Assembly (NCBI GenBank): GCA_964036195.1
Contig: OZ038452.1
Location: forward strand, 20,471,785-20,535,784
Reading direction: 5' to 3'
Length of the DNA: 64,000 nt
DNA from: Sphaerolaimus hirsutus
Lineage: Eukaryota; Nematoda; Chromadorea; Monhysterida; Sphaerolaimidae
A model generated the notes under the pieces. It saw nothing but the letters and a program-made list of their open reading frames with translations, did no database searches and was not told the origin of the DNA. The translations under genes and the position numbers were made by a program. Shown here one piece after another: positions 12,151-55,570 of the stretch (position 1 is its first letter; every line of letters begins with the position of its first letter).

Positions 12151-13602
12151 AGCGCCCGCTCCAGACACTGCCGTGTGATGTTGTGTGATTCTCGGCTCAG
12201 CAAATACCCACAGCCATTCATGGGGATGCGCGCTGGCGTTCACCGACTCGTCGGAAATTGAACCTGCTCGTTGTTATCTGGCAGACTTCATTCGCTTTGC
12301 CTGACATTTTGTTGCACTCTGATGCAGATCGGGTCAGGTGCCAGTTCCAGACCCTGTAAAATGTCTGATGTCATGCAAAGTGTCAAAAGTCATGGAAAAT
12401 GCCCTGCAAAAGGCTAATCGAGTTGCCATTTTGCATGACATTTACATGATGTTTGACACTTAACGGGGTCTGGGACTGCTCCCTGTGCCATATTTTCAGG
12501 GCCAGCGAATCTGGCTGCCAAAGTTATAGCTCAGGCTACGAAAATTACTCGGGCTCGCGCCCAGTTTGACAAATTTTCGAAGTAACTTTTCGCCATTCCC
12601 ATGAAGGTATTGCAAGTGGCCTTCTATGATAAAACGGTGATTCAACAAGTTCATTTATTGATGATCATGCCTACGCTTGTACTGGTTTTATGTCTTTTTT
12701 TAAAATTAAAATAGGAAATTGATTTCTCTATTGCTTCCAATGAAACTCGTTCAGTGTTTTTCCTTCAAGTTATTTGTGTATAGAATGTTATAGTATGTCC
12801 TGTGGGGTGGTTTGCTTGCGATAAATACAAATATTAAGTATTATTTGATGTGTCACTATTGTGTTGTGTACTCATGTATTTACATTCATCCTTGTTGCAT
12901 TTTATTCGCCCACAACTAATAATTATAGTCTTATATGTGAGCGTGTAATAATATTAACTTGTCCTACCCAATTTCGCTTTGCACCCGCGCATTAGAACCA
13001 TGAAATCAATTCACTTTAGATATTTAGAACCCTAAATTATTCGCTATGTTGCTGTGCTATCGAACCATTTCCGTCATCTTTCAAAATTGCTTCAAAACGA
13101 ATATTTTGTTAGAAATGAAGTCATGTGTTATGTACTTCGCATATTATTTTGATAAAAATAAACACGCTGCCAGTCTTAGTTAGGTGAGAGGAATTTATTT
13201 TATCAGTGTCTTTGCGAGTGATAGATGTATTTATGTCATGTGCTGTGACCTAATTTCGGTAGTGGTAAAGTGAAAAACTCTTATTTTATATGAAACGCGA
13301 AAACATGTCTAGGTAGCAATCCCATGCCTTATCTGGTGTAGTGTCAAGTGACAAATTTCCGACAGGTTTTCAAAATACAGGTATAACTTAAATGTAAAAA
13401 GTTACCCTTCAAGTAAAAATCGAAAAAAAATTGAACCTTTACTTGCATATAAAAGTTGTGTCTTTTTTTACTTATGAAAAATTTGTTGGTAGTGTAAGAA
13501 CTTCTACTTGTGAGTTGACAGAACACTTGAAAATTCGTCTGAATTTTGTCACTTGTCTGGGCACTTGACACGGTGTGGGAATGGCCTTTGGTTGCTTTCC
13601 AG
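12151..13602 (+). other. Probable 3' UTR and intergenic gap after the PDZ gene
   Basis: AT-rich sequence without supported exons. AATAAA occurs near 13156 and is a plausible polyadenylation signal for the PDZ gene. An introner-family copy is inserted at 12338-12485. Nothing else is recognised. Confidence 0.4.
12338..12485 (+). mobile_element. Introner-family element downstream of the PDZ stop codon
   Basis: It starts gtgccagttccagaccctg, directly preceded by CAG, and ends ggggtctgggactgctccctg. The internal inverted repeat uses ATGTCATGCAAAGTGTCAAA. It lies about 190 bp after the stop codon. If transcribed in the 3' UTR it could be an intron, but its right end is CTG rather than CAG. Confidence 0.65.
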
Positions 13603-23575: not shown

Positions 23576-26500
23576 ATGAGCGTGTACACTAGCTCCAGGT
23601 GCTAGTCCCAGACTCTGTAAAATGTCAAATGTCATGCAAAGTGTCAAAAGTCATGTAAAAGGTCCTGCAAAATGACAACCCGGTTGCCATTTTCAGGGCA
23701 TTTTCCATGACCTTTGACACTTTGCATGCCATTTGACATTTTACAGGGTCTGGGAGTGCCCGCAGTTCGAGCTCGAGCGCGGCGCCCAGGTCGGCCGGCA
23801 CCAGCTCCAGCGGCTCCACCACCGACGACATGTGCAAAGGTGAGCGTGGGCTTAGGCTAATGATTTGTGTTTTTGATGATTTTTGCCTGTTCACGTTGGG
23901 TTTTTTTTTCATTTGTGAACCTGATGAGATCCGATTGTAAAATCCAGCCGCTCGTGAAAGAGTTGTTTACCGTATTTCCTCGAAATACCCCCCGGGGGGT
24001 GATTGTTTCATAGTGGTCCCGAGAGGGGGGGGGGTTAAACGAGGGGGGGGGGGTATTTCGAGGGGGGGGGGTTATTATTTCACAAGAAAATTTTTGAAAA
24101 CCAAGTACAAAATTGTCGTCTGAAACGTACGCAGACGTCGAAAAATGCAACAAAAACTGCCTTCTGTATAGGGTGTCAAAAAAAATTTTTTACGGAAAAC
24201 GGAAAACGGAAAGGTAAAATTTTTTCACTTTACGGAAAACGGAAAACGGAAAGGTAAAAAAAAAATTTCTGCCGGAAAACGGAAAACGGAAAGGTAAAAA
24301 AATTTCACTCAGCTGAGAAAACGGAAAACGGAAAGGTAAAAAAAATTGTCAGCCGGAAAACGGAAAACGGAAAAATGAAATGCCGGAAAACGGAAAACGG
24401 AAAGCAAAATTTTCACGGAAACGGAAAAAAATAAAGTGAAATTAGCACGGTAATAGACAAATTTCAGAAGGAAAACCTGCATGCAGGTTTGCCTGTTTGG
24501 CTTTGATTGTGGTAGCTGTACATTCTGCAACTATGGATCATGCCTGTAACTTCACTTGTAGTTCAAGCTTAACTGAACCAACAAAAAATCATCAAAAAGT
24601 AGCCATAGTGGCCATAGGAAAGGAAACACTACCACAATTTCACAGTCTAGAAGCAGTGGGAATCACTGATGACCCCTATGCAATTGATGACAACATTGCA
24701 GAGGAGATGATAATAAATAGCATAAAATTCAACAACAACAACAAACAATACTATATTGACTGGCCGTATAAAGAGAGTATCAGTGACCTGCCCACGGGAA
24801 AAGGAGAAGCCTTGGTGCAGTTTAAATCACTGATAAGAAGATTCAACAAAGATCCAAACTTATTCGAACAATACCAGAAAGTTTTGGATGACCAACTAGA
24901 AAAGGGAATAATTGAGATCTGTGATGACAAAACAGACAACAAGGGGATTCATTACCTGCCACACCAGCCAGTAATCACACCGGGCAAATCAACATCATGC
25001 AGAATCGTGTACAATGGGTCGTCAGGTAAGCCCAGTTTCAACGAGTGCCTTTTTAGAGGACCAATTACAACACCATTAGCACTGGGCCTACTCCTGAGGT
25101 TCAGGGCAGGCAATCTAGCATTCATTGCTGATATTGAAAAGGCATTTTTGCAAATAGGATTGCATGACCAAGCTAGAGACTACACACGATTTTTCTGGCT
25201 GAAAGATGCCTCAAAACCAGTAACTGAAAATAACTTAATAGTACTTCTTTTTAAACGTGTACTGTTTGGACTTCAAGTCTGTTTGGACTTGGAGCAGTCA
25301 TAAAATACCATTTAAATGTGACAATAAACAACATGAATGAATATGAAGAAAATGAAGGGGAACAAAACCAGTTGGCAATGATAATAAACAGCATTTACAT
25401 TGATAACTTCATCATGAGTGTCACAAATGAAGTTGAAGCTTTAGAACTATATTACAAAGTCAAAGCTTTATTTAACCAATGTTCTATGAACATGAGGGAA
25501 TGGCTGTCAAACTCCAGATCAGTCATGAATGAAATAGCAGAAAACGACAGGAGTCCAAAGGTGAATAAAATTGTCGCAGTAATGGGCATGAAATAAAATC
25601 ACCGAACGGACATGCTGGCAATATCAACACCAAAATTGCAAATTGACAGCATCACAACACCAACCAGACGAAACTTGAATAAATTATTGGTGTCAGCATA
25701 TGACCCAATTGGGTTCACAGCACCTGTTTCACTGACCCTGAAATCCCAGTTGTCAATGCTGCTCCAAGAGACAAAAACAACACAATGGGATGAGCCAATT
25801 GAAGATAAATACAGATTGGAAAAACAATGGAAAAATGCAAGAAAACTGAAAATCGAGCCTGAAAATGGAAAAATGGCCTGGTAAAACGGAAACGGAAAGG
25901 TAAAAATTTTTCAGCCGGAAAACGGAAAAATGGGCTGGAAAAACGGAAAACGGAAAGGTAAAAATTTTTCGGCTGCCGGAAAACGGAAAACGGAAAGGTA
26001 AAAATTTTTCGGCTGCCGGAAAACGGAAAACGGAAAGGTAAAAAATTTTCCTGCGGAAAGGAGGAAACGGAAAACGGAAACGGAAATTTGACACCCTACT
26101 TCTGTAAGGTTCTGTAGACTAATATTAGTACGTAGATGGTATAAACACTGTTCTAACGTGATTCCGACATTGTTTTAACGTGTGTTCTGCACTACGCAGA
26201 ACATAAACTGCCGTATTTGTCATGTACGTTCTCTTTACACTCAATTGGGGGGGGGGTATTTCGAGGGGGGGGGGTGAGTGTTTCATAGTGGTCTCGAGAG
26301 GGGGGGGTCAAACGAGGGGGGGGGGGGTTATTTCAAGGGGGGGGTATTTCGAGGAAATACGGTAGTTAACAAAATTTCAGTCTTTGTGTCTGCTGCGCAA
26401 ATCAGAGCATCGCTTCAATTCAAATAAATTTCAATGAAAATCATCCGTATCTACCTATATGAATTGCAAATGTGGGCCACCTCGTATTTTTGCACACGTC

Positions 26501-35500: not shown

Positions 35501-38500
35501 TCGAGTGGAGGAATAACTTTTTCCTCGGGTCTTTCACTTTATTCATTGTATGAATGCATTCCATCAACTCATGTAATCGAGGTATTCAGCAGTTAAATAA
35601 CAACCAAAATGATTTATTCATGCTAAAATTTGTGTTCATCAGCATCTGACACATTCAGCATTCAAATACACATTGTGGATACACATGCCGAATACCCAGA
35701 TGGGGGAGTTATTCAAGAGGGGGGTCCGAGTTATTCAAGGGGAGGAGTTATTTTTTCCTAACCTGGCCAACAGGGTGGAGTTGTTCAAGGGCTTCAAGGA
35801 TCCTGAATCCTTCATGTTTAAAGATTTTTTATTTCCATAAATATTAGTTGATAATCCCCAATCTTGGTAAATTCAAGGTATTTTTGCACACATCATGAAA
35901 CGATACTTAACCCGCAACATTTACGTTTCACGAAACATGCAGTACCATCCCAAAACGGCTCCCAGTATCGCTTCTCGGCCTTTTGGCTAAGATCAAAGTG
36001 TAGTATCTGTTCTTATCAGCTTAATCTCTGATATGCAACCTATTGGTTGCACTGAGATTAGTCGATTTTTGGGACCAAGGCGTGGAGCCACAGCTCGCTG
36101 TGCCCTGCCGCGGGTTGGCCCAGCGCTGCACTGCTGCTGGGAACGGCCCACACCCCCGGGGGTGCCTTTGAACTGTTATGTTTTGTTGTGGTAGTGCCTG
36201 TTCCAGGTGCAAACTCGCTACTGGTTCCATGTGCAAACGCAGTGCTGACCACTCCGGATCTTGGTAAATGGCAAACGTGCAGGAAAAAAATTACCTAAAT
36301 ATTTGACGTTTTACAGGGCAATTTACCATATATCCTGGAATAAGTACCCAGGGGAGTTATTATTTCATCAGAAGTTTTGGAGGGAGTAGTTATTCAAGGG
36401 GAGGAGTTATTTTTTCCTCGGAACTTTCACTTTATTCATTGTATGAATAGATTTCTGGCCTTGCATTTTTCCATTGTCAGTTTTCTGGCAAGTGGACTGA
36501 ATTTTCCGATTTCTGCCAAGTACGAAATTTGTTTTCCGTATCCGTATTCCTGAAAGTGCCAAAAATTTATCCGATTCCGTTTTCCGTAAAATTTTTTTTG
36601 ACACCCTAGTCAAAGGTGCAGTAACAAAAACTTGGACGTTTTACAGGGCAATTGAAATACATGACATTTGACATTCACGGGGTATTTTACAGGGTTTCGG
36701 AGTATCCGTTTGTTGCACATCAATCAACAACCTAATTTCCGAAGCTGAAGGATCTTTTTTCAACACACTTGCGTGCATCAAAATGAATGATTTTTCCTCC
36801 ATCTATAGTATTTGACGCACTCCTCAATCTGGTTAACTGAAGGTATTGAAAACAGATTCACCTATCAGCATTGGAAATTTCGACATAAACTGTAAATCTG
36901 TTTTTGAAGACATTTGAGTTTACTCGTTTTAGATCCTCGTCAACAGCAGTTAACGGACTGCTCATTCGGTAATTCGGATTTCTTCAAAATTGAGTGTGTT
37001 TGTAAAAAAGGCACAGTGGGTAGCCAGATATTTATTAGCAGAAAAGCGAAGCATGCTCTATATTTTGTTGAGTGAACACTCAACTTTTACTGTCCAAGTT
37101 TGTTGGCAAACTCGAGGTATTCAGAGTGACAACTGACTTCTTCAAAATTGATGTTCGTAATTACCGTTTAGATTAGCTGTGATCGCGGTGCGAAAATGCA
37201 ATGTGGCAACTGTTGTGGGCAAAAGTAAACCGGAATTTACCTAGAGCGATATAAGACCTACGAACGCAATTAGATGGTGACGCAATTTAAGGTAAAAGTT
37301 GAAAAGCTGTTTTACACCTGACATGAAGTATTTTCGTTGTGACAGAGCTGCGCGCAAATTCTCCATAAAATGGTGTAACTAGATATAAACCAAAGTTACG
37401 TGCCAATGTTCTTATCTTGAACCCAATCGACAATTAGCTCCGAGCGATTCCCAGACTAGGTAATAGTTGGACCCCCGACAATTGATTTATTCACGGTTGC
37501 TTTAACGTTGGATCTCTTGAAAAGGTAATAAAATAAGATGCAACGATGCTTAGAGAAGTCGTAAAAACGTATGTAAGCACATAGGTGCGGAGAGGAGTCA
37601 TTCCTACAGTTCAGTGACTGTGAGTTCCACCTAATACGTTGTGGCCACTATGAAAGCAACTACCTATATGAATCCATCACAAAATATGAAGCCTAGAACT
37701 GCGACACACAGAAATCCAACCGAGTTGCGTAAGTATCACATTTCGTATAACCGCAACTTCTTTTAGTAGAGCTTTTCCGGAAACACGTGTTTCCGGGCAC
37801 TAAGATTCGCATTCTACACATTTTCGTTTCCCACAAAAAAACATGTCGCAGGTGCGCCGCTCTTCCCACTGACGGCGTTAGACAGGGAGGCGACGCCCTT
37901 AGCGCAGTCGGGCGGCGGCATGCGGCCGACGGCGAACTCTAGCGGCAGCGCGGCCACTATTGGGCCCGGCGCCGGCACCGGCACCGTCGGCAGATCGGCG
38001 CTGCAGCTGAAGCCCGCACAGCCGGACAGGACTGCGCATGGCAGCTTCGACCCGGTCAGCGCTGGTGACATGTGAAATTCCCTGTGAAATGTAAAATGTC
38101 ATGCAAAGTGTCAATGGTCATGTGAAGTCATGTAATGCCCTGCTAAATAGCAAACGTGTTACATTACTTTTGACACTTTGCATGACATTTTACATTTTAC
38201 GGGACATTTTACAGTGTCTGGGTCTGGGAGTGCCCCCTGGTGCCAGTCCCAAGCCCTGCAAAGTGTGAAGTCAAGTGTTAAATGTCATGTGAAATGTCAC
38301 AAATTTAGCAATTGGCATGTAAATTGTCTTGTCATACAAATTTGTCAATTGTCATGCCGTGTCACATTTTCAGTAATAAAATCTTTCTTTTTGTTTTGTT
38401 TGACATTTTACATGACATTTCACACATGACATTACACTTTACAGGGCTTTGGACTGCTCGTCCCCAGGCATGCGTTAGCACACGGCTCACACCCATCCAC

Positions 38501-40844
38501 TGACAGGCTAGCGCGCAGCTGCACGACGCGCGTTTCATCGACTCGGTGGCCTCGACGGTGACCAGCTGCACGGGCAGCACGCTCGACACGGCTAGTTCGT
38601 CCACCAGCACGATAAAGGTCGTCCTGTTCCAGGGGCAGCCGCAGCCGGCCTTCAGAGGCTCTGGTTACCAACAAACCACCAGGACGCTGTTTGATGACAT
38701 GTCAGTCAGTCAATCGTATCAGGTTGGTATTATATGCATGGTTTGCAAGCCAAAACTACCTACCTATATACCGTTTCTCCTCGAAATACTCCCTTGAATT
38801 GACCCACCTCTCGAAATAAATCCAGGTCTTTTCGAGTTTGGGAAACATGATCCCCCTCGGAACGCCCCCGGTCTGGAATAAGGTTCATCAAGTATACAAT
38901 GTATAAATTGCTTCCAATTTGCATCTCAGCTACACATAAATAGATAAGATTGTGTAGCTATTTATCTAGGTATGTTGTCTTAATATTTATATCCAGTACG
39001 TTCACGTTTATTGCCAGTTTTGAGTGTATAAAAAGCTATTCTTTGCTAAAATACGATCCTTCATGAAAATTTCTGGCGAAATAATAACCCCCTCGAATTA
39101 CCCCCCTCTAAACTTTCACTCTGTTATAATAAACCCCCGGGGGTATTTCGAGAAAATACTGTACCTAGTCAACGGTACCGGTACGTAGCAAAATAGCCCC
39201 GTTTGCAAACTCGCAGATCGACACGGTGCTGACGGACGACGTGTTGCACCGGCACCCGCGCGCCACGTTCGTGCTCGCGTGCGTCCAGGCGGCGCTCGGA
39301 CTGCACATTCTGCTGTTCGGCGTCATTTGCACCATATACGGCGGCTGCCCCTATCTGTCCGCAGTGTGGATGCCCGTGGTGTTCGTGCTCAACGCTGCTG
39401 CGGGAGTGGTGGGTTGCTTGCGTTGGAATTATTGAACAGGGGCTACGAGTGCGTGCCAAGCTGGCACGCTAACGTTTCTGCACCAAAAAGCTTACATATG
39501 TGCCGACTGCATGTTCACAAAAAAGCCGATAAGTTGAATGTTGGCAGTAGAATGCAATGTCATGAAAAGCTTGCGCACGCACTTGTGGACTCTCATCGAC
39601 CGAACAACTTACATTTAAATTCAGCATATTCCATCTGAATGACTGCCCGCACACTAGTTGACATTTGTGTGTCAAGTCAGATGTCGCCTTCACGTGACGC
39701 AGAGCGATCTTCCATTGCAGTTGCCGTAATATTTATTTTTCAACATTGCCGCATGTGCATTTGGAGATCGCTCTGCGACACGCGAAACTGAAATCATTGT
39801 TGAGACACAAGTGAAGCATGCAGTCGGATGAGTTTTTATGAACTGCGTGGAAAGTACGTGCGCGTCGCAGGTGCTCGTGCGGTTCTACTCGCGGCGACCC
39901 CTTCTGCTGGTCTACCTGGCGGGCACGCTCACGTGCATGTTCATGTCGGCGCTGCTGTTCGTGCTCACGTTGATACTGGTGCAAGCGGAGGACACCTACG
40001 ACAGGCAGGGCGGCACCGCGCCCCACGCTGGCGCTGGAAAGGGGCGGCTGGTGCGCAGCACACGCGCCGCCATGTACGCCATGCACTTGATACTCACTCC
40101 GATCCTCTGTAAGTGCTGGCGAGTGATAGACTTGACAACCAGTGCTCCAAGCAACTGAGACATCTAAACCCATTACACATCTAAACCGGCCACCCATCAA
40201 TTCTACCCATCACACATCGATGATAAAGATATTAGCATATTATTTGACACACCCGCTATACAGTGGGCGGAAAACACAGAGACTTTTGCGTTTACCGCCC
40301 ATTGTAGAGCTGGCCTGTCCACTAATATCATTATGATCCAACCAAATTCGGTTGCACCGGCGATGGAAATAATGCATGCCTCCAGTACAACTGAATAACG
40401 AGCTATGTTGAATGAGTGATAAATGTCGATCATCTCGCCGCTCACCGCAGGCGTGTGCTGCTGCTGCAGCACCGTACTGCTGTACGGCACGTGGCGGGAC
40501 ATGGACACGGGCCGGATCAGCCGCGCCTACTACCTGTCGCAGTCACCGCACACGCACCAGCAGGTGCTCGTGCCCATACGCCTGCAGCAGGTGAAGCGGC
40601 TGCCGCCCGAGGTGGCCCGCGCGCAGGTGCCAGTCCCAGACCCTGTAAAATGTCAAATGGCAATGCAGTGTCAAAAGTCACGTAAAATGCCCGGTAAAAT
40701 GGCAAACGTACGTTTTACCGGGCAATTTACATGACTTTTGACACTCTGCATGACATTAGACATTTTACAGGGTCTGGGACTGGCCCCCAGGCCGGCATCA
40801 AACTGGTGAATGCGGGCGTGCAGACCAATGGACTGTTTGCGTAG
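23576..40844 (+). CDS. Four-transmembrane protein, unrecognised family
   Basis: Exons in matching phase are 23576-23598 (ATG), 23766-23839, 37852-38054, 38507-38722, 39217-39408, 39871-40108, 40451-40626 and 40791-40844 (TAG). The N-terminal half is a Ser, Thr, Gly and Pro-rich tail (MSVYTSSSSSSS at the start). Four hydrophobic segments follow: about 39270-39345, 39352-39408, 39895-39985 and 40069-40108 continuing at 40451. The fourth contains CVCCCC. A short polar C-terminus follows. Introns 1 and 7 are introner elements. Intron 2 is 14 kb and contains U2 copies 5-11, a Bel-Pao fragment and several DNA transposons. AATAAA lies at 41279, downstream of the stop. A cytoplasmic, Ser-rich N-tail with four TMs is inferred. 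I do not recognise the family. The exon-3 donor (GTCAGC) is weak and was chosen for phase. Confidence 0.75.
23599..23765 (+). mobile_element. Introner forming intron 1 of the four-TM gene
   Basis: This 167 bp palindromic element is exactly the intron between ATGAGC..TCCAG and TTCGAGCTCG. Its left end is gtgctagtcccagactctg and its right end is ggtctgggagtgcccgcag. The joined codons give an uninterrupted Ser run, so the insertion split a run of Ser codons in phase 2. Internally ATGTCATGCAAAGTGTCAAA is mirrored by TTTGACACTTTGCATGCC. CAG flanks both sides. Confidence 0.85.
24169..26098. mobile_element. hAT-like composite element carrying Bel-Pao fragment
   Basis: The ends TAGGGTGTCAAA (24169) and TTTGACACCCTA (to 26098) are inverted. 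They are flanked by a perfect 8 bp duplication cttctgta (24161-24168 and 26099-26106). Both subterminal regions are tandem arrays of ggaaaacggaaa units. The interior is a retrotransposon pol fragment. No hAT transposase is seen, so mobilisation must have been in trans. Confidence 0.8.
24497..25884 (+). pseudogene. Bel-Pao retrotransposon pol fragment (reverse transcriptase)
   Basis: Three consecutive pieces (24497-25303, 25318-25596, 25612-25884) form a broken pol region. The first contains FHSLEAVGI near a protease-RT linker, YLPHQPV, CRIVYNGSSG, RFRAGNLAFIADIEKAFLQI (RT motif A with its Asp) and RFFWL. All of these are typical of Bel-Pao. The second has YIDNFIMS where the family has YVDDF, so a catalytic Asp is replaced by Asn. 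A stop and frame breaks lie between the pieces. There are no LTRs, gag or integrase, so it is a dead fragment. Confidence 0.85.
26573..26758 (+). ncRNA. U2: U2 snRNA, copy 5
   Basis: Full-length copy with conserved promoter block, branch-recognition region and Sm site. It is the first U2 in the 14 kb intron of the four-TM gene. Its downstream unit carries the GCGCCATGG fold-back. Confidence 0.95.
27731..28340 (+). pseudogene. U2 snRNA copy 6, disrupted by an insertion
   Basis: The first 25 nt of U2 (27731-27755, with two changes in the 5' stem) are separated from the remainder (28181-28340) by a 420 bp TTAA-flanked fold-back element. The 3' part also lacks one base in the ggagccac segment. 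The copy cannot make normal U2. A second insertion follows 9 bp after its 3' end. Confidence 0.9.
27756..28175. mobile_element. TTAA-flanked fold-back MITE (piggyBac-like target) inside U2
   Basis: TTAA occurs at both borders (27752-27755 and 28176-28179). The ends are inverted: gtcgtttacacggtttcgtg against cacgaaagcgtgtaaacgct. The element folds around a centre near 27970, where ttcggtttcaaaatgaaaac reads palindromically. The TTAA duplication is typical of piggyBac transposition. No ORF is present. Confidence 0.75.
28350..29910. mobile_element. MULE-like element with about 350 bp terminal inverted repeats
   Basis: Left arm 28355-28710 (gacatgttgtgtactttaac..) and right arm 29548-29905 are reverse complements. 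The flanking CCCCCGGGG (28341-28349 and 29911-29919) is a 9 bp duplication of the normal U2 flank. The sequence on each side continues as an ordinary U2 unit. Long inverted repeats and a 9 bp duplication fit Mutator-like elements. The core (28711-29547) carries a small spliced reading frame on the minus strand. Confidence 0.75.
29274..29496 (-). CDS. Small two-exon gene inside the MULE-like element
   Basis: On the minus strand, ATG (29494-29496) opens MADSGT and is followed by a consensus GTGAGT donor at 29478. After an acceptor gctgggcag, exon 2 (29414-29274) continues in frame for 46 residues to a TGA. The peptide is about 52 residues: a hydrophobic stretch (VLVLLAGPMAHVF) and then a Gln/Ala-rich heptad-like tail (FLQAQLAAALQQLQALQQPQ). 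It may be a coiled-coil accessory protein or a captured host fragment. The acceptor is chosen for phase only. Confidence 0.4.
30471..30669. mobile_element. 199 bp MITE inserted in a U2 repeat unit
   Basis: The termini TGGCCACACAAGCTAGTTTT and AAAACTAGCTTGTGTGGCCA are perfect inverse copies. The flanking CATTG (30466-30470 and 30670-30674) is a 5 bp duplication, and the unmodified unit (gacggcattggtgc) occurs in neighbouring repeats. Related older copies lie at about 5085-5215 and 48427-48625. Confidence 0.8.
31244..31429 (+). ncRNA. U2: U2 snRNA, copy 7
   Basis: Full-length. One substitution near the 3' stem (gctgctgcgaacgg instead of gctgctgggaacgg) distinguishes it. Branch-recognition and Sm regions are intact. 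First unit of the regular array. Confidence 0.93.
32428..32612 (+). ncRNA. U2: U2 snRNA, copy 8
   Basis: 185 nt. One base is missing in the ggagccac loop, and the base before the Sm site is changed (agttgatttttggg). Both changes are outside the branch-recognition region, so it may still be functional. Confidence 0.9.
33611..33796 (+). ncRNA. U2: U2 snRNA, copy 9
   Basis: Full-length, but the Sm-site region reads gtcggtttttggg instead of gtcgatttttggg. This replaces the A that opens the canonical AUUUUUG site, which could weaken Sm-ring assembly. The base before the 5' end is also changed (cccagc). Confidence 0.9.
34784..34969 (+). ncRNA. U2: U2 snRNA, copy 10
   Basis: Full-length with intact branch-recognition and Sm sites and one change in the variable stem (aaggtgtgg). 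Conserved promoter block upstream. Confidence 0.94.
35967..36152 (+). ncRNA. U2: U2 snRNA, copy 11
   Basis: Full-length and identical to the consensus. It is the last copy of the array. Its downstream flank departs from the unit consensus after ctttgaactgtta and leads into a remnant of the cggaaaacgg family ending at a TTTGACACCCTA terminus (36612). Confidence 0.95.
36620..37851. other. Unique intronic sequence
   Basis: End of the large intron of the four-TM gene. Apart from an introner-like fragment at 36630-36705 (ttttacagggcaattg, ttttacagggtttcgg), I see no repeat, RNA or exon. Confidence 0.4.
38065..38467 (+). mobile_element. Two introner-family elements head-to-tail in one intron
   Basis: The first copy (about 38065-38239) ends gggagtgccccctg. 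The second (38240-38467) begins directly with gtgccagtcccaagccctg and ends ggactgctcgtccccag. Both have internal inverted ATGTCATG/CATGACAT blocks. They fill most of the intron between the exons ending near 38054 and starting at 38507. The true acceptor seems to be the older cactgacag at 38506, because the second element's own CAG leads into a stop. Confidence 0.65.
39640..39812. repeat. MITE copy in an intron of the four-TM gene
   Basis: Inverted ends ttgacatttgtgtgtcaagt and acacaagtg, with the core gcagagcgatcttccattgc mirrored by catttggagatcgctctgcg. Same family as 8970-9165. Confidence 0.6.
40627..40790 (+). mobile_element. Introner forming the last intron of the four-TM gene
   Basis: This 164 bp element runs from GTGCCAGTCCCAGACCCTGT to GGTCTGGGACTGGCCCCCAG. 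The left exon ends ..GCGCAG in phase 0, and the right exon resumes GCCGGCATC and runs 17 codons to a stop. Read without splicing the frame meets the element's own sequence, so the element defines both splice sites. The interior is a near-perfect hairpin (tgtcaaatggcaatgcagtg / cactctgcatgacattagac). Confidence 0.9.
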
Positions 40845-48816: not shown

Positions 48817-49502
48817 AATTGAGTTTAATTGTCCATTGTAGATACAGTGTGTTCGTCAGATCTGAAAAGTGCACCTACCTAACCGCTTACGTTTACTGTC
48901 GCTCTTGTCTACGGGTACTGTGGCGCGCTGGCTCTTTTTATGTTTGTATGGCGTCACCTCATATTTATGTATGTTTGTACATTTGAAATTCAGCGTTGGT
49001 TTGCTCGAATAATTCCCCATGGGAGAACTTTTCGAGGGGGGTATTTTTTCGACAAATTTTTAAAGAATGTTTCCGTCAAGTCATTTCACGAAAAATGCTT
49101 ATTTCACAAAAAAAACGTGCCATTTTTGTTCAAATTGGAGAAAAGAAATTGATCTAATGCTTTAAGGGGGTATTTTTTCCTCACTCGCCTAACAGGAGGG
49201 GGGTTATTCAAGAGGAGGAATTATTCAGTCAAAATACGGTATTTATATTCATTTATAGCTAACAGTTATGTATCATTACAGTATGTTTGTGAAATATTTT
49301 TTGTTTTAGTTGGTTTCAGGCAGAACTCTGCGATTTGTTTGTGGATGGTCAATGGAGGTTGAGATGCAAATGCGGAAAAATAAAGATGTAACCGAAATGA
49401 CCGTTGGCTTCTGGGCTCTTGAGCACATGCACAACAAATAAAGCATTCATAAAATGAACTGAAGTCGTCTGACTGAAGCGCCCACCTAGCCTGATTATGC
49501 AT

Positions 49503-49629
49503 GGGGGCAGTCCCAGACCCTGTAAAATGTCAAATGTTATGCAAACAAGTTGCCATTTTGCAGGGCATTTTCCATGACTTTTGACACTTTGCATGACATT
49601 TGACATTTTACAGGGTCTGGGACAGACAC
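49503..49629. mobile_element. Introner-family element, intergenic
   Basis: gggggcagtcccagaccctg on the left and cagggtctgggacagacacc on the right are inverted ends. The internal tgacttttgacactttgcat block is diagnostic. The orientation suggests the intron sense would be minus, but no flanking exon is recognised. Confidence 0.6.
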
Positions 49630-50703: not shown

Positions 50704-52260
50704 ATGAGCACAAACGAGGGCGCCCTGTTGCTGCCGCACACACCATTTGACAATAACATCGGCTGTCAACTGGACGTTTTGGTTTCTATTGACATTTTAG
50801 TTGACGAAGCATGGAGTTGTGTTCTAATGCGCATCAATTCACCAGTATCAATTCCCTTTCAACATTACCGCATGTGCACTAGGAAATTACCTTGTGGGTA
50901 TTGCCATGGAAATCGGTTGACGCCCAGTGAGTTGACACCCGCTGTAGCATTTGCCAATCGGATGGGGGATGGCCTCATGGATCGGATGGGGGATGGGAAG
51001 TTACCTCAATACGCATGGGTAAAAACACCTACCACGAACCCCCGAAATTTCTGAAACGTGTGCTCTACGGGTTTAATGTGAGGATGGGGATTATTATCTG
51101 GCTAAAAAATTCCATGGCCATGGCGCTTTTTGGAACGCCAGCACCAAGCGCCAATGGCGCCAGGGCAAAATAGCGCCAAGCACCAGAAGCGCCATGGCTT
51201 TTTTGCTTTGGCGCTAGCGCCAAGCAGCCAGCACCAGGCGTTTTGTTCCTGGCACCACGCAAAAATAGCGTCAAGTGCCAAAAGCGCCATGGCGCTTTTC
51301 CGACCACTAGCGCCAAGCGCCAATAGCGCCAGAGCAAACATTCGACCAGACCCTTAAATAACATTTGACACTTTACAGGGTCTTTTACATGACACCTCAC
51401 ATTTTACATGGTCTTTTACATGACACGTGACATTTTACAGAGTCTTTTACACGTTACATGGTCTTTTACAGGGTCTGGGACTGCCCCCTGGGCATCGCAC
51501 TGGGCGCTTTGATCGGAGTGCAGTTGGTACTGACAGCCGAGCCACTGGCGCATCAATACCGACTTTTGTTGTTCAGCGGCAGCTGGCCCATGGCGTTTGT
51601 GTGGCTGGGCGTGCTCAGTTTGATCTTTCCGCGTTGGCGGCACTTGTCGCCATTTTACACATTTTACAAATCTGTTCATGCCATCATGTAGCATGCCCGC
51701 TTAACCTATCTTTTTTCAGTTTACTTTGCATTTTACGTTTTACGTGGCATTTTACATTTCACATGACACTCGACCCATCACGCCATCAAATGCAAAGCTC
51801 CTTATCAAACTGTTGTTCAAAAATACGACGTCGGAACGACAGCACAAATCCCCACACCACGCAGGCAACCGAAACCAGCGCCAAAACACCAACACCGAAA
51901 CCTACACGCGTGCTACACCGGCGTCATTGGAGGCCTTCTGGTGCCAGTCCCAGACATTGTGAAGAGCCCTGGAAGATGGAAAATGTCACGCAAAGTGTCA
52001 AAAGTCATGGAAAATCCCTGCGAAATGGCAACCGAGTTGCCATTTTGCAGGGCATTTTCCATGACTTTTGACACTTTGCATGACACTTGACGCTTTACAG
52101 GGCATTTTACAGGGTCTGGGACTGCCCCCAGGGCGGCTTGTCGCGCCACTTCAGCGAGAGTTCTTATGGGCGGCACAGCGGCGCTTCTGAACAACACGAG
52201 GGTGGACATAGTTCGAATGAGTCTGTGGGCAGCGCGGCGCACGAATCTGGCTGCTCGTAA
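50704..52260 (+). CDS. Fragmentary membrane-protein gene
   Basis: Three exon-like pieces are seen. 50704 opens MSTNEGALLLPHTPFDNNIG after possible 5' UTR. 51491-51632 encodes two hydrophobic segments (GIALGALIGVQLVL and MAFVWLGVLSLIF). A piece ending at 51940 (GVIGGLL) joins in phase 0 across an introner to 52132-52260, a Ser/His-rich tail (GLSRHFSESSYGRHS..) ending in TAA. The last junction is well supported; the others are not resolved in phase. The 51491 piece follows an introner end that is CTG, not CAG. No family is recognised. Confidence 0.45.
51105..51345. repeat. GCGCCATGG fold-back, solo copy
   Basis: Repeated self-complementary ggcgcttt/aagcgccatgg units as in the U2 units, here inside the fragmentary membrane-protein gene. 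ORFs on both strands (51102-51357) come from this repeat. Confidence 0.65.
51358..51490 (+). mobile_element. Rearranged introner-family element
   Basis: Several tandem half-units (tttgacactttacagggtc, cattttacatggtcttttac) end in the standard ggtctgggactgccccctg. It directly precedes the hydrophobic exon at 51491. If it is the intron's 3' end, the acceptor is TG rather than AG. Confidence 0.55.
51941..52131 (+). mobile_element. Introner forming an intron (191 bp)
   Basis: It runs gtgccagtcccagacattg to ggtctgggactgcccccag and lies between ..GGCCTTCTG and GGCGGCTTG in phase 0. The hairpin core is tgtcacgcaaagtgtcaaaa against ttttgacactttgcatgaca. The right exon then reads 42 codons to a stop, which supports the junction. 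Confidence 0.8.
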
Positions 52261-53760: not shown

Positions 53761-54131
53761 CCCACCCTACTCGCAGGGCGCCCAGTGAACTCGTGAACGG
53801 CAACGAAGCGAATGCGCACAGCTGGCCCTGGCAGGTGCCACTCTCAGACGCTGTAAAATGCCCTGCAAAATGGCAAATGTCATGTAAAGTGTATAAGTAA
53901 TGGAAAATGGCAAAAGTCATGCAAAGCGTCTCAAGTGATGTAAAATGTCCTTGAAAGTGGGAAACGTACACATGTGCATTACACTTGGCATTTCACAGGG
54001 CATTTATTTTACAGGGTCCGGGACTGCCCCAGGTGTTCATCTCTAGCACGCACGGCTATAAGTGGAATGAGTGCGGCTCGACCATTCTGAATGAGAAATG
54101 GATCGTCACCGCCACGCACTGTGTAGAGTCT
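53761..54131 (+). CDS. Chymotrypsin-like serine protease, N-terminal part
   Basis: The left exon (from 53761 or 53777 to 53834) encodes ELVNGNEANAHSWPWQ, matching the activation site and N-terminus of S1 proteases (IVGG..A..HSWPWQV). The right exon (54033-54131) continues in phase 0: VFISSTHGYKWNECGSTIL, then NEKWIVTATHCVES, which contains the catalytic His in TATHC. The intron between them is an introner. Asp102 and Ser195 exons were not found downstream before repeats begin, so the gene is incomplete here or dead. The first residue of the mature chain would be Leu instead of Ile, as LVNG. Confidence 0.8.
53835..54032 (+). mobile_element. Introner forming an intron in the serine protease
   Basis: 198 bp from gtgccactctcagacgctgt to gggtccgggactgccccag. 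CAG precedes the left edge and ends the right edge. The protein on either side (SWPWQ / VFISSTHG) is an aligned region of S1 proteases with no insertion, so the element is removed precisely. The inner hairpin is longer and more decayed than in other copies. Confidence 0.88.
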
Positions 54132-55165: not shown

Positions 55166-55570
55166 TGCTTTCGATGAAGTTGAACTCCTTGGGCATGCGC
55201 TCGACCGGCACCATCAGCTTGGCCTCCACGTGGTGCCGCCGCTGAGGGCCCTGCGTCGACCGGGGGCCAGTCCCCGACCCTGTAAAATGCCCTGTAAAAT
55301 GTCTTATGTCATGTAAAGGGTAAAAAGTCATGTGAAGTCCCCAATGAAATGGCAAACATGTTTGCCATTTTACATGACTTTTGACACTTCCCATGGCATT
55401 TTACATTCTACAGGGCATGTACCAGGATCTGGAAGTGGCACCAGTACGTGTACTCGATGTCCGGCTGCTCGTCGCAGTCGTGCTGCTGGCGCGGCGAGCC
55501 GGCGGTGCGCCCGTGCTGCGAGCTCAGCCCCAGCGGCGAGCGCAGCACCTGCGGCCGCGGCGCGCTGGGC
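55150..55570 (-). CDS. Two exons of an unrecognised minus-strand gene, split by an introner
   Basis: Upstream exon (about 55570 down to 55442) reads SALPSAPRPQVLRSPLGLSS.. and CDEQPDIEYTYW. After the element, STQGPQRRHHVEAKLMVPVE and RMPKEFNFIESMI follow (55260-55150). Joining in phase 2 at TG|G keeps the frame open. The element's right end reads CCCCCGG rather than CCCCCAG, so the acceptor would not be AG. The plus strand also has an open Cys-rich frame here, so strand is not certain. Confidence 0.4.
55261..55441 (-). mobile_element. Introner-family element, minus orientation
   Basis: Read on the minus strand it starts gtgccacttccagatcctg and ends ttacagggtcggggactgg + cccccgg. The inner arms aatgtcttatgtcatgtaaa and ttacatgacttttgacactt are typical. 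Its orientation, GTGCC-first on the minus strand, agrees with the minus-strand exons flanking it. Confidence 0.7.

Follow-up and report, generated by a model that had tools for sequence, protein, structure and literature searches.

We describe a family of almost fully palindromic miniature inverted-repeat transposable elements (MITEs) in Sphaerolaimus hirsutus, represented by the copy at positions 40627-40790 of a 64,000-nucleotide stretch (hereafter the window; C3:20471785-20535784 of an assembly of 348.5 Mb in 762 contigs), which very probably makes introns: the element, of NuwaI type, would insert into CWG triplets of coding exons and be spliced out of the message as an intron with GT-AG or GT-TG ends. 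The preliminary description of the window had proposed that these transposons are introns, and this proposal is supported by the exact termini found across the assembly, by the agreement of the CWG triplets on the two sides of the element (38 of 42 copies), by an empty site in a paralogue and by 12 cases in which a conserved domain spans the junction. That the element is an introner, a transposable element that makes introns, is well supported by what we read in the genome.

In the whole assembly, the GTG end of the element (CWGGTGCCAGTCCCAGACC) has 1,572 exact matches and the GGG end (CWGGGGGCAGTCCCAGACC) has 1,721, with no match to reversed control patterns of either end. The consensus of 76 aligned copies (length 120-205) measures 171 nt including the right-hand CAG, that is, 168 bp plus a 3-bp CWG target site duplication. 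The 40627-40790 copy, which starts with GTGCCAGTCCCAGACCCTGTAAAATG and finishes with GGTCTGGGACTGGCCCCCAG, folds almost wholly on itself, with a minimum free energy of -111.4 kcal/mol compared with -39.8 (standard deviation 4.4) in 200 shuffles (z -16.5); this confirms the internal hairpin reported earlier, and in the fold of this one copy the terminal repeats are base-paired. The outermost five bases of these repeats are GTGCC on the left and, read inward, GGGGC on the right, differing at positions 2 and 4. Since the termini differ at position 2, being GT on the left (GTGCCAGTCCC) and GG on the right read inward (GGGGCAGTCCC), a terminal GT donor is available in one orientation only: GT-first copies read ...CWG/GTGCC...CCCCCWG/..., and the opposite orientation begins with GG. 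Copies were retrieved by the terminal GT pattern, which makes the presence of GT in each copy true by construction; only the orientation relative to the gene is informative.

The target triplet was read in an unselected sample on contig C1, namely the first 60 of 100 listed places, 12 of which have no recognisable right end. The flanking triplets were CAG/CAG in 20 copies, CTG/CTG in 18, CAG/CTG in 2, CTG/CAG in 2 and others in 6. W is identical on both sides in 38 of the 42 C1 copies that have CWG at both sides and in 74 of the 87 rows overall, or 73 of 86 after dropping L040, which was entered twice. By hand count, CAG and CTG occur 59:41 on the acceptor side (100 listed G-ends) and 52:48 on the donor side (100 listed T-ends; p 0.39). 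On this reading of the sequence, the 3' end of the putative intron is set by the target duplication and not by the element. The acceptor CCCCCAG described earlier as common to the four sites is found as the right-hand CWG copy, which is not always CAG and often CTG, and the idea that one element supplies both splice sites holds for the donor GT, whereas the last two bases of the acceptor belong to the duplicated target.

For each copy, the sequence beginning at GTGCC and running through the right-hand CWG was deleted from the genomic text, and the frames joined in this way were inspected. One sense peptide each was picked by eye for 31 of the 39 non-duplicate copies of the unselected sample, and one antisense peptide each was picked by length for 22 copies, 21 of them on C1 (among these L064 and L065, whose sense peptides were verified); the Pfam E-value limit was 0.05 in earlier and 0.01 in later peptide scans. 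A Pfam match runs across the junction in 8 of the 31 sense peptides, and none of the 22 antisense peptides gave a Pfam match. With the cases from outside this sample, there are 12 positions, in 11 genes, where the alignment to a conserved domain continues through the site of the element as though nothing were inserted (Table 1). Similar sequences reach both ends of the putative intron at many gene positions, and they carry the terminal inverted repeats (TIRs) and target duplication of a DNA transposon. For SLC23A1, BCKDHA, COLGALT1 and cyclin Y, the alignment to solved protein chains is gap-free at the junction; the ACSL peptide had no match among solved structures. The patched-like frame (by eye) at L030 had no match in the Pfam scan or the follow-up search. 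Three further candidates were not counted: a PTPMT1-like phosphatase (L016) with two element copies, whose DSPc match stops at the second junction, and Drf_FH1 and TUDOR, the sole two matches of one later peptide scan, both weak. The GT end lies on the 5' side of the gene in all 12 verified copies (p 0.0005), as expected of a U2-type donor, and retention of the element would bring a stop into the frame in use in each of the 11 copies checked (10 verified copies and L030). Domain-splitting copies make up 8 of the 60 in the sample; multiplied by the 1,572 exact ends, this extrapolates from one contig to about 200 such introns genome-wide; the true number is probably higher, since a large part of the coding sequence lacks a Pfam match.

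If removal is exact, the 3' end is AG in 7 and TG in 5 of the 12 verified cases. Four of the TG cases (SLC23, BCKDHA, OSCP1 intron 2 and the G-protein-coupled receptor, GPCR) are among the eight verified in the unselected sample, and the fifth is COLGALT1. The ordinary introns read by eye are all GT-AG (three of three in DCP2, one of one in OSCP1). TTTTAC stands 21-24 nt before the element end in 8 of the 11 copies examined. Considering these features, we propose the following hypothetical sequence of events: (i) the MITE inserts into an exonic CWG and duplicates it; (ii) the spliceosome would take the element's own GT as donor, branch at the A of TTTTAC, some 22 nt before the end, and use the C-run as a short pyrimidine tract; (iii) the right-hand CWG would form the 3' end, removal restoring the exact pre-insertion message, with a CAG target giving a GT-AG intron and a CTG target giving a GT-TG intron that this animal seemingly tolerates; (iv) insertions in other orientations, and those that remain unspliced, would be purged from conserved regions. 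Either the choice of the 3' splice site is relaxed in this animal, or the paired arms help excision in a manner similar to SOS splicing. We are evenly divided on a broader proposal, namely that transposon-made introns form a large class in this animal, that their 3' base is simply the one the target held, and that GT-TG introns lacking a usable AG function roughly as well as those of GT-AG type, by way of a relaxed 3' splice-site step or of routine hairpin-directed removal.

SOS splicing is triggered by paired terminal repeats and is independent of the spliceosome. Were the elements excised in this way, the palindrome, and not GT or AG, would define the stretch removed, and RTCB would ligate the mRNA; the long near-perfect hairpin and the TG ends of half of the verified unselected cases would fit such a process, as would the nearly equal frequency of CTG and CAG duplications, since palindrome-defined removal would explain their similar tolerance. 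Part of a review (PMC13247085) describes SOS splicing as a metazoan defence that cuts transposons from mRNA with ligation by RTCB. A mechanism that recognises structure only should, however, ignore orientation, and the verified copies are 12:0 GT-first, the two opposite copies (L041 and L103) being unverified. Because the palindromic interior leaves orientation almost solely to the two termini, this ratio argues that the GT matters, and we consider hairpin-directed, spliceosome-independent excision unlikely. An improbable explanation to a similar degree is that splicing is exclusively GT-AG and that CTG copies use other AGs or the inner GTAAAA donor, giving slightly altered proteins. GTAAAA is indeed present in both arms (it is lost in the open-frame copies L024, L025 and L092, which have no family match), the opposite-orientation copies could use an inner donor, and COLGALT1 is ambiguous in this respect, having in-frame AGs 9 nt before and 6 nt after the junction. 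In contrast, GTAAAA as donor would leave 18 in-frame nt and put six residues into regions that otherwise align gap-free, and use of the AG 19 nt upstream would throw SLC23, BCKDHA, OSCP1 and the GPCR out of frame. Of the AGs within 60 nt, those in frame lie only downstream in SLC23 and the GPCR, where they would cost 11 and 20 residues, respectively; the sole one in BCKDHA would add 19 residues, and those in OSCP1 would mean a gain of 15 or a loss of at least 6.

We give little credence to the view that the assembly happens to contain disruptive alleles of conserved genes, in which the CTG copy stays unspliced. The assembly does represent few haplotypes, but CTG copies account for four of the eight verified unselected cases, and CTG/CTG copies are not unusually young, because their divergence from the consensus is similar to that of CAG/CAG copies (medians 9.5%, n=23, and 7.3%, n=42). 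That ordinary MITEs landed secondarily in old introns, with coding flanks by coincidence, is very hard to credit. Many copies do lie outside recognised exons (for example at 12338 and 49503), and an ordinary intron of OSCP1, between the two element introns of that gene (L110, L064 and L065; C1:3591745-3593230), holds degenerate family copies, one of which ends in CCCCCAG. This ordinary intron and those of DCP2, however, have canonical sites of their own, and one empty site lies in an open frame. For the verified genes we rejected secondary landing, as their coding frame runs up to both ends of the element.

Several observations weigh against the introner interpretation nonetheless. The TG 3' end in SLC23, BCKDHA, OSCP1 intron 2 and the GPCR breaks the AG rule, and splicing from RNA is inferred from the continuity of the proteins. 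The difference between sense (8/31) and antisense (0/21) C1 peptides (Fisher p 0.016) is only indicative, because the former were chosen by eye and the latter by length. A codon-usage score separates the strands poorly, being higher in sense for 28 of 40 CAG/CAG copies and for only 11 of 21 CTG/CTG copies, and is too noisy in the GC-rich flanks. The opposite-orientation copies L041 and L103 lie between coding-looking frames without a Pfam match; they would have to be spliced from GG or from an inner GTGAAA/GTAAAA and, if real, may use the inner donor where the protein tolerates it. Taken alone, the empty site described below could reflect precise loss in paralogues, and within the window a recognised homologue was found at only one of the four sites (53835). 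By eye, the flanks of L103 resemble a LITAF-type protein.

Probable gain of the element was read in two gene families. The joined flanks of L092, in a gene that is lectin-like by eye and has no Pfam match, match C1:7909085-7909407 without interruption at 92% and two C15 places without interruption at 74-75%. The empty paralogue reads CAAACCAGGCTGG with a single CAG, and the filled gene reads CAAACCAG[GTGCC...CCCCCAG]GCTGG. The simplest reading of these sequences is that the element was gained with duplication of the CAG. For the C1 GPCR with a CTG/CTG element, four paralogue places (two on C2, one on C6 and one on C691) are uninterrupted at that point, and another C6 paralogue carries a separate copy of about 380 bp a few codons away, CAG/CAG and in the same orientation; as judged from these sequences, this is independent gain within one gene family. 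Both the empty lectin-like site and the uninterrupted GPCR paralogues point to insertion into a previously continuous exon. A third lectin-like place on C15 (C15:3657893-3658610) matches the joined flanks of L092 in two pieces about 430 bp apart; its break is near, not at, the L092 position and may be another insertion.

Regarding its origin, the element appears to be a non-autonomous MITE with a CWG target duplication whose features fit NuwaI of the PIF/Harbinger superfamily. Parts of PMC4482050 describe NuwaI as an animal element of the PHIS (PIF/Harbinger, ISL2EU, Spy) superfamily with CWG target duplications and TIRs that usually start with GGG, and the likeness is drawn because of the CWG duplications and the GGG terminus here. 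In contrast to NuwaI, one terminus here is GTG (GTGCC, the other being GGGGC), the element is palindromic throughout, and no transposase is tied to the family. A NuwaI element would be mobilised by a NuwaI DDE transposase together with a Myb/SANT partner. The genome has 163 DDE_Tnp_4 matches; the one copy read (L048, C7:3244940-3245572) lacks a matching TIR, and no transposase bearing the element ends was found. Among the first 100 listed C1 G-ends, inspected by eye, there was no inward-facing exact G-end pair within 1-8 kb that would mark an autonomous partner. A viral-contig pattern scan gave no matches. In the DDE_Tnp_4 family, for example in L048, the domain match exceeds the profile by about 190 bp, and in-frame TGAs occur in most listed copies; the extra length is possibly an intron of the transposase gene.

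The comparisons that follow draw on parts of the papers cited. Introners (Gozashti et al. 2022, PMC9860276) resemble the present family in being multi-copy sequences of transposable-element type whose ends coincide with intron ends, with TIRs and target site duplications, one splice site coming from the element and the other from the target duplication, and some hosts are animals; here, orientation depends on two bases of the terminal repeats, and either CAG or CTG would serve as acceptor. In the main text of that survey introners are rare in animals (two animal groups), and the words PIF, Harbinger, Nuwa and CWG are absent. Introner elements of the dinoflagellate Amoebophrya (PMC7789003) also have hairpin-forming inverted repeats, direct repeats of 3-5 nt across the intron borders and non-canonical ends. 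Their borders are very variable, whereas the introns proposed here start with GT and vary only in the penultimate base. Among animals, 3' ends other than AG have their nearest precedent in the tunicate Fritillaria borealis (PMC13326754), in which U2AF is duplicated and 95% of introns are non-canonical; in contrast, the four ordinary introns read here all have GT-AG ends, and a TG end is proposed for element introns alone. The mitochondrial COX1 of the present assembly, compared by eye with conserved residues, fits the invertebrate code (AGR as serine) and not the tunicate code. In human U2 introns, TG serves as a 3' splice site only as an alternative beside a nearby AG, never alone (PMC2374985); here TG would be the sole end that restores the protein. 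SOS splicing likewise removes a DNA transposon from mRNA (PMC13247085), whereas in the present family the verified copies share one direction and have a GT. Searches of one open-access library, outside supplements such as the species list of PMC9860276, for introners, CWG duplications, non-canonical introns, TG acceptors and SOS splicing did not bring up this family.

Introners are a leading explanation for bursts of intron gain, and a numerous family with empty and filled paralogues would offer a stepwise view of the birth of introns. A 3' end set by the target constitutes a natural matched experiment, with CAG and CTG acceptors behind the same element at many sites, that would test directly how strict the AG rule is. 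The family also joins two fields, those of NuwaI-type MITEs and of hairpin-directed removal of transposons from mRNA.

Within the window, all four elements first described lie where they had been placed and have the kind of ends reported (Table 1). The further claim that each splits a protein frame is verified at 53835-54032, because the Trypsin match (1e-12) of the joined flanks runs across the junction; at 40627, 23599 and 51941 the joined frames are open with no family match, and 23599 and 51941 are plausible as split reading frames on the genomic sequence. In a BLAST comparison of 40627-40790 with the window, 23599-23765 matches over its full length (82%, E 3e-40) and 51967-52131 with E 2e-24, with partial matches at 12338, 49503 and 55290; the copy at 53835-54032 has diverged further, its best piece having E 1e-6. 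Of the dispersed copies named earlier, those at 12338 and 49503 lie outside recognised exons, and the one at 1404 is only a partial match (1423-1465).

Table 1. Element copies and adjoining features in the window, and genes elsewhere in the assembly in which a match was read across the junction (^, junction).
Feature	Position in window or copy	Strand	Sample	Basis
Left target copy CAG, last codon of upstream exon	40624..40626	+		Sequence, end scan
Putative element intron of 164 nt with donor GTGCC; final CCCCCAG includes the right target copy (its CAG)	40627..40790	+		BLAST, fold, joined frame
Upstream open frame, phase 0, membrane-protein-like gene, no family match	40423..40626	+		Frame joining
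Downstream terminal exon, AGIKLVNAGVQTNGLFA-stop	40791..40844	+		Frame joining
Putative element intron within S1 serine protease (SWPWQ^VFISS), CAG/CAG	53835..54032	+	Outside unselected sample	Pfam Trypsin match spans junction
Element, left CTG, right CAG; joined frame open (GVIGGLL^GGLSRHF), no family match	51941..52131	+		
Element, CAG/CAG; joined frame open (VYTSS^SSSSSAAP), no family match, then normal-looking donor CAAAG/GTGAGC	23599..23765	+		
Element, left CAG, right CTG; outside recognised exons	12338..12485	+		
Element, GTG end on minus strand, left CTG, right CAT; outside recognised exons	49501..49629	-		
Longer element copy, left CTG, right CAG; adjoins right end of another copy (~38225-38237)	38240..38467	+		
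Element copy, GTG end on minus strand, left CTG, right without CWG (CCG or CGG)	55261..55441	-		
Isolated right end GGTCTGGGACTGCCCCCTG joined to open frame (GIALGALIGVQ...)	51472..51490	+		
Xan_ur_permease (SLC23)	L109		Unselected C1	Pfam across junction
E1_dh (BCKDHA)	L107		Unselected C1	Pfam across junction
Cyclin (cyclin Y)	L108		Unselected C1	Pfam across junction
Protein kinase (STRAD-like by eye)	L098		Unselected C1	Pfam across junction
7TM (seven-transmembrane) receptor (GPCR)	L100		Unselected C1	Pfam across junction
Oscp1, two putative introns of one gene (OSCP1)	L065 and L064		Unselected C1	Pfam across junction
PAN	L075		Unselected C1	Pfam across junction
Kinase	L037		Outside unselected sample	Pfam; only 6 matched residues left of junction
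ACSL	L029		Outside unselected sample	Weak Pfam, E 1.3e-3, below Pfam cut-off
COLGALT1	L023		Outside unselected sample	Solved structure aligned across junction

The two abutting copies at 38225-38467 share a CTG, as if the target duplication of one had served as the target of the other. Elsewhere in the window, positions 15525-36180 hold repeats, both scattered and tandem, with a unit of about 1.18 kb and 10 copies of a 300-nt core, several of them in tandem at 31-36 kb, and open frames at 24446-25884 resemble by eye a reverse transcriptase of a BEL/Pao-type retrotransposon, the first of these frames having no Pfam match. The mitochondrial contig (C762, L089), read by eye, carries cox1, closely followed by an atp6-like frame and then tandem repeats.

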